From Gammaproteobacteria bacterium (lineage in GTDB: Bacteria; Pseudomonadota; Gammaproteobacteria; HK1): 45,917 nt of DNA. Shown here in pieces: positions 5,176 to 45,917 of this stretch; the first letter of the stretch is position 1; every line of letters begins with the position of its first letter. The notes under the pieces were generated by a model, which was not told where the DNA came from, made no database searches, and worked only from the letters and a program-made list of their open reading frames with translations. The stretch lies in the NCBI GenBank assembly GCA_021773635.1, contig JAJFJV010000024.1, positions 1-45,917 of the forward strand. Direction: 5' to 3'. Made by a program: the position numbers and the translations under genes.

Positions 5176-5207
5176 TTCGCCTCTGTTTCGTGCATTCGGA
5201 TTGGCCT

Positions 5208-5714
5208 ATGACCACAGAAAAACGCAGCAATATCGTACTTATTGGTATGCCGGGGGCTGGCAAGAGCACCGTGGGTATCATCCTGGCAAAACGGCTTTCC
5301 CTGAATTTTGTCGATACTGATGTGCTTATTCAGACCACCCAGGGTCGCGCACTTCAGGACATCGTCGACCGTGATGGCCATATCGCCCTGCGGGCTATCG
5401 AGGAGAAGGTATTGCTTGGTCTGCAGCTAAGCCGGCACGTCATTGCCACCGGTGGCAGTGCGGTTTACAGCAAAAAAGCCATGTGTTGGCTAAGAGATAA
5501 CGGTGTCATCATCTTCCTCGACCTGCCCCTCGCGGCACTGAAAACCCGCATTCGCGATTTTGCTACCCGGGGTTTGGCCAAGCGTGCCGATCAGAGCCTG
5601 GCTGATCTGTATGCCGAGCGGCGATTGCTCTATGAGCGTTATGCCGAAATCAGTGTTGACTGCCTGGGGCTGGATCAGGACGAGGTGTGTACGAGGATAG
5701 TTGAAAGTCTGTGA
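5208..5714 (+). CDS. Shikimate-kinase-like P-loop kinase, divergent active site
   Basis: This 168-residue P-loop kinase resembles AroK/AroL, which phosphorylate shikimate in the aromatic pathway. Walker A is GMPGAGKST near residues 15-23. The DTD of the shikimate-binding site, the LRAIEEKVL segment (equivalent to FRxxE) and the late R-LLYERYAEISVD segment are present. Two landmarks differ: the substrate-site GGG reads GGS, and the lid motif RPLL reads RGLA. It stands alone without aroB, unlike the usual aroKB pair. It may be a shikimate kinase subfamily or act on another small alcohol. The ATG at 5208 is preferred over GTG at 5190 because it sits directly before the conserved start. Confidence 0.7.
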   Translation: MTTEKRSNIVLIGMPGAGKSTVGIILAKRLSLNFVDTDVLIQTTQGRALQDIVDRDGHIALRAIEEKVLLGLQLSRHVIATGGSAVYSKKAMCWLRDNGVIIFLDLPLAALKTRIRDFATRGLAKRADQSLADLYAERRLLYERYAEISVDCLGLDQDEVCTRIVESL

Positions 5715-6641: not shown

Positions 6642-7547
6642 TCAACTTGGTCTGATTCCAGACTGACCAGATGAGCTCTGCCGATGCAGCAAGTGCCCAT
6701 ACTCGAACAGCACCAGCCCCGAGAGAATCATCGCCGTCCCGCCCCAGACTTCTGCTGTTACCAATTCTCCGTTGAGTCCATTCCCGAGCAACAGGGCGAT
6801 TACCGGAGTTAACAGGGTAATCAACGCTACCCGTGTTACCTCAACGCGGCGCAACACGTAAAAGTAAAGGGCAAATCCCAGCACTGAGCCGACTATTCCC
6901 AGATAGAGGATTGACGCCAGCGCGCGTTCAGGAATTGCGGTGGGGATGGGCTCTCCCATCAGAAAAAACACGCCGAGATAGAGCGGCACCGCCACCATAA
7001 GTGCGCCGGTGGTTACCACCAATCCGGGCAACTGGGCGTCTATGCGCTTCACCGCCACGGCGCTCGCAGAATGCACGGTGGCAGACAGCAATACGCCTGC
7101 GATGCCGAGGGCGGCTTCCGGGCCCAAGGACCAACTACTGCTAAAGATAAGCACCAGTCCACTTACACCCAGCAGCATGCCCGCTAACCGACTCGGCGTG
7201 AGCGCCTGCTCGGTGAGCCAGAAGCTGGCCATTACCCCCGTCAATATCGGCGTCAAGCCGAAAATGACCGAGATCCAGCCCGAGGGAATGAATTGCGAAG
7301 ACCAGTACACCGAGAGCATCGCCAGGAATAATCCCAGCCCCGCAGCCAGATAGGTCCGACGGGCCTGCTGATGCCATGGCAGTTTGATGCGAAACAGCAG
7401 CGCAATCAGCAGGCAAAAGCCAACACCGAGCACCATGCGCCCGGTCAGTCCGAACAGGAAACCCACCTCATCGCCACTCCACTTGATGGCGAGCGGTGTG
7501 GTGGACCAGATAATGATGACCCCAATATAGGCCGCGGGGATAGACAC
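6642..7547 (-). CDS. EamA/DMT-family transporter, leader-controlled
   Basis: This 301-residue integral membrane protein has about ten hydrophobic helices in two homologous EamA halves (first half to about residue 135, second half from about 150). Family members mostly export amino acids or other small metabolites; the substrate here is not evident. Translation starts at GTG (7547), supported by AGAGGAA about 7 bases upstream. The gene is preceded by an intrinsic terminator only about 40 bases before the start and a short leader ORF, so its transcription is probably controlled by attenuation. That layout suggests the transported or sensed compound is linked to an amino acid or its charged tRNA. 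Confidence 0.88.
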   Translation of the reverse strand: MSIPAAYIGVIIIWSTTPLAIKWSGDEVGFLFGLTGRMVLGVGFCLLIALLFRIKLPWHQQARRTYLAAGLGLFLAMLSVYWSSQFIPSGWISVIFGLTPILTGVMASFWLTEQALTPSRLAGMLLGVSGLVLIFSSSWSLGPEAALGIAGVLLSATVHSASAVAVKRIDAQLPGLVVTTGALMVAVPLYLGVFFLMGEPIPTAIPERALASILYLGIVGSVLGFALYFYVLRRVEVTRVALITLLTPVIALLLGNGLNGELVTAEVWGGTAMILSGLVLFEYGHLLHRQSSSGQSGIRPS

Positions 7548-7584
7548 AATTATTTCCTCTGGTTAATTACAAAACCCCTAAACG

Positions 7585-7618
7585 AAAAAAGGCCACAGGG
7601 CATACGCCGTGCGGCCTT
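7585..7618 (-). terminator. Attenuator terminator upstream of the EamA gene
   Basis: Read on the minus strand, AAGGCCGCACGGC pairs with GCCCUGUGGCCUU around a GUAU loop, with one C-C mismatch and one G-U pair, and runs into six U residues. It ends about 40 bases before the GTG start at 7547, which makes it an attenuator rather than the end of an upstream gene. Confidence 0.7.
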
Positions 7619-7644
7619 CTTGGAAATGTTGAATCGGAACTAAA

Positions 7645-7746
7645 TTACAATATTGATCTCCCACGGCCACACGCGCAAGCATCCACGCGCCATACCAGTA
7701 GCAGGCGCGTGCTGTTTTTCATGTGGCGTTGAAAGAAGGTGTTCAT
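7645..7746 (-). CDS. Putative attenuator leader peptide
   Basis: A 33-codon ORF starts at ATG 7746 or, in frame, a 25-codon version at ATG 7722. The shorter form begins MKNSTRLLLVWRV and ends DACACGRGRSIL. Its RNA holds hairpin 1 (CACGCGCC with GGCGCGUG, 7684-7711). The segment GUGUGGCC then can pair with GGCCGCAC, the 5' arm of the downstream terminator, to form an antiterminator of eight pairs with one wobble. GRGR at the end recalls the GRG endings of ilv and leu leader peptides. There is no strong Shine-Dalgarno sequence, and the control codons are uncertain: Leu, Arg, Cys and one Trp are all present. Confidence 0.45.
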   Translation of the reverse strand: MNTFFQRHMKNSTRLLLVWRVDACACGRGRSIL

Positions 7747-7764
7747 GGCGCGGAGTCTCGCTCG

Positions 7765-7782
7765 TGACAGATAAGCCTGTCA
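7765..7782. promoter_or_regulatory. Inverted repeat overlapping a -35-like box of the EamA leader
   Basis: TGACAG and CTGTCA are perfect 6-bp arms around a 6-bp spacer. On the minus strand the right arm lies within TTGACA (7783-7778), a perfect -35 hexamer about 55 bases upstream of the shorter leader ATG. No good -10 box is visible. It could be an operator or part of the 3' end of the upstream hydrolase transcript. Confidence 0.3.
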
Positions 7783-7800
7783 ACCGTTGGGGAGCTAAAC

Positions 7801-8631
7801 TCACATAGTCGGTCTGGAAACAAATGCGCCAAGAGCCCGTCCATAGCCCGGTTGGCTCATAAAAACCCCGCTGTTGTGGCCGCCCCTCATCTTCACGAAG
7901 GATTTTGGCTCGTTGGCTCCCTGAAATACTTTCTCTCCAAGGTGGAACGGGATGACCTCATCATCAGGGCTGTGCAGCACCAGCACCGGAGACCTTACCC
8001 GCTTGATATGTTTTGCGGCATCAAAATCGTAACGCAGGAAAATCAATCGGGAAAGAACAGGAAAAACCGCATTGGCTACATCCCTTGCGGAGCTGAATGT
8101 GGACTCGAGAATCAGTCCTCCGGGCTGAACATCCGCAGCCAGCTCTGTTGCCACGGCGCCGCCAAGCGAGCGACCAAACAGGATGATATCTTTCGGTCGG
8201 CCCTCTCGCTCATTGACCAGATAGTGCCAGGCCGCTCTGGCGTCCTTGTAAACACCTTTCTCATCCGGCTTGCCGTGGCTTTTTCCGTAACCCCGATAGT
8301 CGAAGATAAAGACATTCAGGCCAAGGCGATGAAAGATCTCTATGGTATCGCCGCGGTGGGAGATATTGCCGGCATTGCCGTGGAAAAAAAGCAGAGTCTG
8401 TTTCGATCCATGATGTGGAATGTGCCAGCCATGCAGGCGCACGCCATCCTCGGTATCCAGCAGGACATCCTCATACCGAAGCCCCCACTCCTTTGGCGTC
8501 TGGTCGATCGTCGCGTCGGGGAAAAAGGTCATCAAGGGCTGTTGCAGATACATATAGCCATTCAACAGGGCTAGCCCAAGCAGCAGGAGCAGGATGTTAT
8601 TTATCATCCGGTTTTTCACGTGGTCCGGCAC
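7801..8631 (-). CDS. Membrane-anchored alpha/beta hydrolase (ABHD13/Bem46-like)
   Basis: This 276-residue serine hydrolase has an N-terminal hydrophobic anchor (NNILLLLLGLALLNGYMYL) and an alpha/beta hydrolase fold. The visible elements are the HGNAGN oxyanion loop, the nucleophile elbow GRSLGG, the acid loop HSPDDEVIP and the catalytic His in GGHNSG. Proteins of this Bem46 type are found across bacteria and eukaryotes, and most lack a known substrate; esterase or thioesterase activity is plausible. The GTG at 8631 gives the longest form. An ATG 24 bases downstream (8607) immediately before the hydrophobic segment is equally plausible, and neither has a clear ribosome-binding site. Confidence 0.85.
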   Translation of the reverse strand: MPDHVKNRMINNILLLLLGLALLNGYMYLQQPLMTFFPDATIDQTPKEWGLRYEDVLLDTEDGVRLHGWHIPHHGSKQTLLFFHGNAGNISHRGDTIEIFHRLGLNVFIFDYRGYGKSHGKPDEKGVYKDARAAWHYLVNEREGRPKDIILFGRSLGGAVATELAADVQPGGLILESTFSSARDVANAVFPVLSRLIFLRYDFDAAKHIKRVRSPVLVLHSPDDEVIPFHLGEKVFQGANEPKSFVKMRGGHNSGVFMSQPGYGRALGAFVSRPTM

Positions 8632-45862: not shown

Positions 45863-45917
45863 TGGCGCTCCCTAGGGGACTCGAACCCCTGTCTACGCCG
45901 TGAGAGGGCGGTATCCT
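45863..45917 (-). tRNA. tRNA-Glu (CUC anticodon), 3' part only
   Basis: The minus strand reads as the last 55 bases of a tRNA-Glu, with the 5' part beyond the window. The anticodon stem-loop is CCGCC-CTCTCAC-GGCGT, giving anticodon CUC at the position of UUC in the E. coli tRNA. The T arm is AGGGG-TTCGAGT-CCCCT, and the 3' end GGGAGCGCCA carries an encoded CCA. The outer pair of the anticodon stem (27-43) is C-U, a mismatch. Glu-CUC is a minor isoacceptor that reads GAG only, so a UUC tRNA must exist elsewhere. Confidence 0.85.

Follow-up and report, generated by a model that had tools for sequence, protein, structure and literature searches.

A predicted leader-peptide transcription attenuator with a conserved tryptophan codon upstream of an EamA-family transporter gene

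The leader and the transporter gene

The window, that is the whole stretch of 45,917 nucleotides that was analysed, contains on its minus strand a compact leader (7746-7585) located 5' of a gene for an EamA-family transporter. It comprises a 33-codon open reading frame (ORF) and three pairings, namely 1:2 (a hairpin), 2:3 (the antiterminator) and 3:4 (an intrinsic terminator; Table 1). Read along the minus strand from 7783, the order of the elements is TTGACA, 18 nt, GAGACT, 7 nt, ATG, 33 codons, TAA, terminator, AGAGGA and GTG. The upstream gene is encoded on the same strand and terminates at 7801. The transporter scores 107 bits against PF00892 (gathering score 28.2). Against the NCBIfam equivalogs it reaches 59.7 of 270 for YedA and 28.8 of 300 for YddG, and none of the four listed models is at its cut-off.

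A sequence-only reading of the window had proposed a leader-peptide attenuator before the EamA gene with all parts in order, and the comparative data agree. That reading offered two ORF lengths, 25 or 33 codons, of which the longer has the conserved start; the shorter version begins at the second Met, codon 9. Hairpin 1 is present within the ORF as proposed, and extends beyond the CACGCGCC/GGCGCGTG part that had been named, because its base pairs with strand 2 too. The whole ORF folds alone into one long hairpin (-39.6 kcal/mol).

The segment GUGUGGCC (7673-7666) has two alternative partners, 7608-7615 in the antiterminator, as the earlier reading had it, and 7727-7720 within the ORF (hairpin 1). 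The 7608-7615 strand also pairs with 7592-7599 in the terminator, and all three pairings are mutually exclusive. The terminator (7621-7586, -23.3 kcal/mol) carries six U at 7590-7585 and is located 37 nt 5' of the GTG at 7547, close to the 40 bases estimated before. For the 256-nt leader the folding z is -2.55, with 2 of 200 shuffles equally stable.

Table 1. Features of the leader and the transporter gene in the window
Feature	Position	Strand	Basis and remarks
Putative -35 element TTGACA of the leader promoter	7778..7783	-	Inferred; sequence and orthologue pattern
Putative -10 element GAGACT, spaced 18 nt from the -35 element and 7 nt from the leader ATG	7754..7759	-	Inferred
Leader peptide ORF, 33 codons, leaderless mRNA probable	7645..7746	-	ATG 7746, TAA 7647-7645; MNTFFQRHMKNSTRLLLVWRVDACACGRGRSIL
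Trp codon 19 (TGG), proposed control codon	7690..7692	-	Trp in 104/111 peptides; geometry
Strand 1, forming the 5' side of hairpin 1; its base, 7720-7727, is paired to strand 2	7700..7736	-	Folding, enriched contacts (104 leaders), swap test
Apical 3' arm of hairpin 1, contains the Trp codon	7684-7696	-	Folding
Strand 2, 3' arm of the hairpin 1 base and 5' arm of the antiterminator; holds GUGUGGCC at 7673-7666	7656..7676	-	Swap test, alignment
Strand 3, 3' arm of the antiterminator and 5' arm of the terminator (AAGGCCGCACGGC, UUCC upstream)	7606..7627	-	Covariation
Strand 4, 3' arm of the terminator; U-run 7590-7585	7586..7601	-	Covariation
AGAGGA, Shine-Dalgarno-like, of the transporter gene	7555..7560	-	Sequence
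EamA-family transporter, 301 aa, GTG start at 7547, regulated gene	6642..7547	-	Pfam PF00892, 107 bits

Conservation of the leader, its start and its pairings

The ORF retains its frame and length, with no indels, in the two other members of the genus (MNTLFQRHMKSPVRLPLAWRADTCTCGYGRLML, MNTLFQRHMKNPVRLPLVWRAGACTCGHWRLML), where a different gene lies upstream. Within the class, 95 of 369 genomes encode the transporter at an E-value no higher than 1e-60. In GTDB at least 571 places encode a relative, and the best 80 were used; among these are records of Thiocystis, Thiorhodococcus, Imhoffiella, Thiodiazotropha, Mariprofundus and others. Leaders of the culturable carriers Thiocystis violacea and Mariprofundus ferrooxydans PV-1 are L167 and L161, respectively. 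The Chromatiaceae and the symbionts among the carriers are sulphur-oxidising, and Mariprofundus is iron-oxidising. One of 96 places in the class (G091:C18) was left out as too near a contig end, and two of 175 upstream regions (L113, L159) as too short.

A script recovered promoter, ATG, short ORF and terminator in 148 of the 173 readable upstream regions. Merging of leaders more than 85% identical left 111 non-redundant leaders from Gamma- and Zetaproteobacteria. A U-run terminator was present in 148 of the 151 leaders above the promoter/ORF score threshold. When the 95 class regions are ranked by E-value, the script succeeded in 30/30 (these include the window and its genus), 19/20, 15/20, 13/20 and, in the last group, 2/5; the leader thus tracks the orthologue and fades with distance. 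In L067 (third group), L160 and L176 the leader is visible by eye despite failure of the script, and in L173 only its 3' part is; none of these were counted. The sequence-only reading had named orthologues devoid of leader ORF and antiterminator, or a terminator pairing free of covariation, as evidence against an attenuator. Neither was found: alignment with the orthologue upstream regions shows the ORF kept in most of them and the antiterminator strand recognisable, and the terminator covaries. The spread of the leader, its probable leaderless start and the copies before other genes are additions to that reading.

The pattern TTGACN-N16-18-NANNNT-N6-7-ATG occurs in 110 of the 175 orthologue upstream regions, and block-shuffled sets average 0.3. 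The ORF is 23-37 codons long in 109 of these 110 promoter-selected loci, which involve no choice on length, and 47 codons in the other one. A gap of 6-8 nt separates -10 element and ATG in 105 of the 111 leaders; the leader-search score credited the ATG, a spacer of 16-18 and a gap of 6-8, so that such figures are partly selected and the strict-pattern count is the test made without choice on ORF length. Upstream of the leader ATG, GGAG, GAGG or AGGA is present in 4 of 111 leaders, as against 91 of 111 for the transporter start. The transcription start is predicted at the ATG or within a few bases of it. Together with the missing Shine-Dalgarno motif in 107 of 111 leaders, this makes it probable that the leader ORF is translated from a leaderless mRNA. 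A sigma-70 consensus scan detected no promoter; the -10 element is degenerate. In the genome of the window itself the promoter-spacing pattern has 12 matches, compared with 8 in the reversed control; the case is therefore carried by conservation and not by the pattern. A further promoter-spaced ATG of this genome, with a 30-codon ORF (MFVRLRTFWNSELAGRARRPTRSEIQSFTN; L298, G000:C37:1858, and L299), may be chance.

Pairing was assessed by covariation and by swap tests, the controls of which ignore the tree and the relatedness of the leaders. Column-pair tests were run minus four leaders without the GCC/GGC core (L029, L055, L167, L179). Invariant columns spoiled mutual information with APC on the anchored blocks, and Watson-Crick excess was tested instead. 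When the 6804 column pairs are ranked by this excess, the first five all belong to the terminator stem (z 8.2-10.0). In 54 sequences, 98.0% of the terminator cells are paired, 8 of 10 pairs have changed on both sides, and covariation is 0.337 (0.163 shuffled).

The antiterminator, in an alignment blind to pairing, is paired in 79.4% of cells, with a covariation of 0.276 compared with 0.194 when shuffled (0/500 as high) and at most 0.115 when slid. Two of five measures are unexceptional for it, namely pairs changed on both sides (6 vs 4.9) and further pair types (15 vs 13.0). Alignment column 230 covaries with column 135, its partner in the antiterminator, and also with column 250, its partner in the terminator. 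On Trp-anchored columns the best register of strand 2 with strand 3 has a Stouffer score of 4.3. In the swap test of these two strands (111 leaders), own partners have an advantage of -3.36 kcal/mol over foreign ones (z -14.3), compared with -0.62 and -0.81 in the codon-shuffled controls. Considered singly, 51 of the 111 leaders have an antiterminator duplex stronger than that of 95% of their codon shuffles. In the 54 leaders, the antiterminator strand CUGYG-Y-GCC often has one unpaired pyrimidine at column 137 of alignment A3.

For hairpin 1 the swap test gives an advantage of own partners of -5.61 kcal/mol (111 leaders; z -17.8; controls -0.88 and -0.76). The swap tests thereby support the view that strands 1:2 and 2:3 co-evolve. 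Trp-centred tests were made on the 104 leaders with Trp. Here the contacts of hairpin 1 are enriched, for example codon -12 with codon +8 relative to Trp (42.7, as against 4.4 in codon shuffles), and its ensemble energy has a mean z of -1.81, below -1.64 in 51 of 104 leaders. The duplex test of strand 2 with the upstream codons was null, with 7 of 104 leaders at the 5% level, and Trp-anchored column-by-column covariation had no antidiagonal standing out for hairpin 1. On these two grounds 1:2 is the least secure of the pairings outside the window.

The control codon, ribosome models and related leaders

The earlier reading had left Cys, Arg, Leu or Trp as the possible signal. Trp stands out among them: it is present in codons 12-22 of 101 of 111 peptides, where 47 are expected from within-peptide shuffles (z 11.5). 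The same test gives weaker values for Leu (z 5.2) and Arg (z 4.1), and Cys fell outside the eight residues that it put out. Cys was rejected, its codons being mostly within the antiterminator strand and probably stemming in large part from the antiterminator sequence CUGUGUGCC. Of the 111 peptides, 68 have one Trp, 34 have two, 2 have three and 7 have none. A single Trp in most leaders contrasts with the tandem codons of textbook attenuators, which are typical and which the mechanism does not need. Codons 18-20 hold 69 of the 142 Trp codons. Among moderately related peptides Trp is the best-retained residue (0.71), followed by Arg (0.52). The peptides are variable overall, and the residues flanking Trp differ widely. 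TGG occurs 142 times in frame compared with 76 and 23 in the other frames; stops are absent in frame by construction and amount to 5.5% and 2.5% in the other frames. Strand 2 begins 12-17 nt (4-5 codons) 3' of the Trp codon in 49 of 104 leaders. CGA makes up 0.20 of the Arg codons in the leaders and 0.10 in the transporter genes of the same loci.

Stalling was modelled on a truncated transcript, a toy model with an RNA that ends before the 3' arm of the terminator and a ribosome footprint of 30 nt. Mean antiterminator pairing in this model is 0.65 with the A site at codon -4 relative to Trp, 0.56 at Trp, 0.46, 0.41, 0.39 and 0.35 at +1, +2, +3 and +4, and 0.41 at the stop codon. Positions before Trp are thus likewise permissive for 2:3. 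According to this profile Trp would be located, on average, at the downstream edge of the zone that permits readthrough, and a ribosome past Trp would disfavour 2:3. In the window the value is 0.68 at +2, 0.52 at +3 and 0.45 at +4, a drop three to four codons after Trp. The ribosome-free RNA pairs 2:3 almost like the Trp-stalled one (0.52 vs 0.56; window 0.70 vs 0.69), and the truncated model therefore lends no support to a role of hairpin 1 in untranslated RNA. Equilibrium folding with the whole terminator gives a terminator pairing of 0.94 with no ribosome, 0.91 with a ribosome at Trp and 0.94 with a ribosome at the stop. Pairing at Trp is lower than at the stop in 14 of 104 leaders (window 0.59 vs 0.96) and higher in 1. 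Ribosome positions are hardly discriminated on average by the equilibrium model and partly so by the truncated one; the folding models back the position of Trp only in part.

A covariance model was built from 54 leaders, taken from the 108 that are not longer than 175 nt. At an E-value of 1e-7 or below it gave 83 matches, spread over 78 of the 369 class genomes, some of which had also provided leaders for its training. In a sample of the phylum, matches were found in 23 of 398 genomes; 20 are outside the class, and 16 of those 20 are before EamA genes. Downstream of strong matches outside the known EamA places stand further EamA genes and, at L284, one more gene. Nineteen of 20 fetched places were read. 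Seven of them (at least 37 bits) have a leader, and twelve (at most 36.2 bits) resemble ordinary terminators or chance.

Several leaders precede genes of other kinds. Leaders with Trp codons stand before an alpha/beta hydrolase with an N-terminus that looks lipoprotein-like by eye (L222 and L224, genomes G147 and G061). Others precede a small secreted-looking protein with no match in Pfam or NCBIfam (L223 and L259, G134 and G249). A Trp leader without TTGACA is located before a short ORF and a transglutaminase-like gene (L258, G315). These three kinds of gene have no obvious fit to a Trp regulon. In G050 a leader (L239/L263) precedes argD, followed by a transglutaminase-like gene and, by eye, an acetyltransferase-like ORF; the argD product is just above the NCBIfam cut-off (568.6 vs 568), and the peptide of L239 has no Trp and carries Arg at codons 10, 12, 16 and 18. 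In three genomes outside the class leuA is located behind apparently leaderless leaders with Leu codons, namely L279 (ILRLR), L287 (LNLRL) and L288 (LNLRL). The LeuA protein of L279 scores 666.8 (cut-off 455), and those of L287 and L288 were assigned by sequence likeness only. In these look-alikes the amino acid matches the gene, Leu before leuA and Arg before argD. Their likeness to the EamA leaders may reflect shared descent or architecture alone. Samples at the level of the order around G050 and G147 (1 and 4 genomes) gave no new target gene.

A short ORF with one or more Trp codons (..RWRW and similar) precedes trpE in 5 of 10 class genomes inspected. Four of these leaders were found by script and have at least 2 Trp (L181, L184, L188, L189), and one was found by eye and has one Trp (L180). 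No Trp-codon ORF was seen before trpE of the genome of the window (L187). A listing for the trpE of L182 was not counted, as it appears inside the upstream gene.

Proposed mechanism, alternatives and known systems

It is nearly certain that the class of mechanism is leader-peptide transcription attenuation, and Trp is the likely amino acid sensed, judging from the retention and placement of its codon. The best reading, to which slightly better than even confidence is given, is a ribosome-dependent attenuator of the trp/his/leu type, through which tRNA-Trp charging would govern the expression of an orphan EamA transporter. It builds on the ORF, the promoter spacing, the missing Shine-Dalgarno motif, the three exclusive and co-evolving pairings, and the conservation and usual geometry of Trp. 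RNA polymerase would begin with the A of the leader ATG or a directly neighbouring base, and a ribosome would enter the 33-codon ORF on the leaderless transcript. With charged Trp-tRNA the ribosome would pass codon 19 and cover strand 2 up to the stop; the 3:4 terminator would form and the transporter would be off. With scarce Trp-tRNA it would stall at codon 19, with hairpin 1 opened and strand 2, about 15 nt downstream, left free. Free strand 2 would pair with strand 3, the terminator would be blocked and the transporter transcribed. In this scheme we infer the stalling, the direction of the response and the behaviour without translation. The cargo could accordingly be Trp or a Trp-related compound, and induction by Trp shortage would be easier to reconcile with uptake of Trp or a precursor than with export.

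The strongest rival as regards the amino acid is arginine, sensed by the same attenuator alone or jointly with Trp, with ribosomes waiting at the Arg codons before Trp. Arg is present in 111 of 111 peptides and within codons 12-22 in 104 of 111, where 87.4 are expected. Three of the seven peptides without Trp (L015, L062, L068) have Arg-Arg at codons 18-19, the related leader before argD is Trp-less as well, and the stall model is permissive at codons that precede Trp. However, the enrichment of Arg is far below that of Trp and its position is not fixed, the best one, four codons before Trp, being occupied in 37 of 103; CGC predominates among the Arg codons just 5' of Trp, in keeping with a GC-rich stem. 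Sensing of Arg is accordingly considered quite unlikely. The strongest rival as regards the mechanism is general translation stress, in which slow translation or a ribosome inhibitor would be sensed, either by a drug-type attenuator or by an arrest peptide that requires Trp within the exit tunnel; the transporter would in that case be an exporter. Trp is a key residue of the TnaC and SecM arrest peptides, basic residues are frequent before Trp in the leaders, exporters occur among EamA proteins by their NCBIfam names, and some copies stand before the hydrolase and other non-biosynthetic genes. The wide variation of the residues around Trp, the match between amino acid and gene at leuA and argD, and the frequent location of strand 2 directly downstream of a Trp-stalled ribosome speak against such stress sensing, which appears fairly unlikely.

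Two other explanations do without a sensing peptide. The ORF could be incidental to an attenuator that senses an RNA or a protein, with UGG as a binding motif, few parts of the ORF besides the start and strand 2 being as constant as UGG. An ORF of 23-37 codons in nearly all promoter-selected loci, the bias of TGG towards one frame, and the Leu and Arg codons of the look-alikes make this very unlikely. That the structure is a plain terminator of the same-strand gene ending at 7801, with a chance ORF and no regulation, is extremely improbable: the other two members of the genus keep leader and terminator behind a different upstream gene, and the leader has a promoter-like sequence of its own along with co-evolving pairings. 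A wider extension of the preferred Trp attenuator can be put forward only tentatively and with considerable doubt. It would be a leaderless attenuator cassette of at least two classes and no Rfam family, in which the codon at one structural position sets the specificity (Trp for EamA and a few others, Arg for argD, Leu for leuA), serving a Trp-starvation regulon that has gone unrecognised and whose main member would be a Trp-related EamA transporter.

The closest known type is the enterobacterial trp attenuator (RF00513, Trp_leader), with its his and leu counterparts, which likewise has an ORF with control codons, hairpins 1:2, 2:3 and 3:4 and a U-run terminator near the gene. The present leader differs from it in having usually one Trp codon instead of a tandem, a transporter instead of trp enzymes, and no Shine-Dalgarno motif before the leader ORF. 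RF00513 has no match in the window even with the E-value limit set to 5; its best score among 20 orthologue loci is 23.0 bits, at L040, compared with a cut-off of 41. A search with Rfam, at gathering score in the window and at permissive E on a 501-nt stretch and the 20 orthologue loci, gave no family above cut-off except a partial tRNA at the window end. A search of PDB sequences returned a single weak and unrelated match. Few cargos are known for the EamA proteins, which form a very large family of transporters. In Bacillus subtilis, ycbK, which we take to encode an EamA-type transporter in the rtpA operon, has a T-box among its controls. In PMC11255114 ycbK is described as a Trp-controlled gene with a TRAP site, and its control by TRAP contrasts with the leader peptide proposed here. 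In Sinorhizobium meliloti, as described in PMC7298713, the trpL leader RNA (rnTrpL) likewise has its 5' end at the ATG of the leader ORF, contains Trp codons and is terminated upstream of the gene. It encodes a peptide of 14 aa with several consecutive Trp codons before trpE(G) of an alphaproteobacterium, and the likeness is one of description only.

The sequence-only reading was aware of no leader-peptide attenuator described for the EamA family, and the literature search likewise found no published account of one among the matches listed, which were at the level of title and abstract and from few subscription journals; earlier lists of Trp leader peptides could contain one. The large catalogue of premature terminators by Naville and Gautheret 2010 (PMC2965389) includes leader peptides, and the words EamA and tryptophan are absent from its main text. 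These comparisons suggest a new, widespread case of a known attenuator type and a testable clue to the cargo of an orphan transporter. A conserved switch that names an amino acid would offer a cheap and direct cargo hypothesis for a widespread orphan EamA clade, and the leaders provide a large comparative data set for attenuators that are seemingly read from leaderless transcripts. Elsewhere in the window, 5190-5714 encodes a small kinase whose best NCBIfam model is a homoserine kinase (173 of 197 bits, below the cut-off), and the partial tRNA match at 45866-45917 is cut by the window end.
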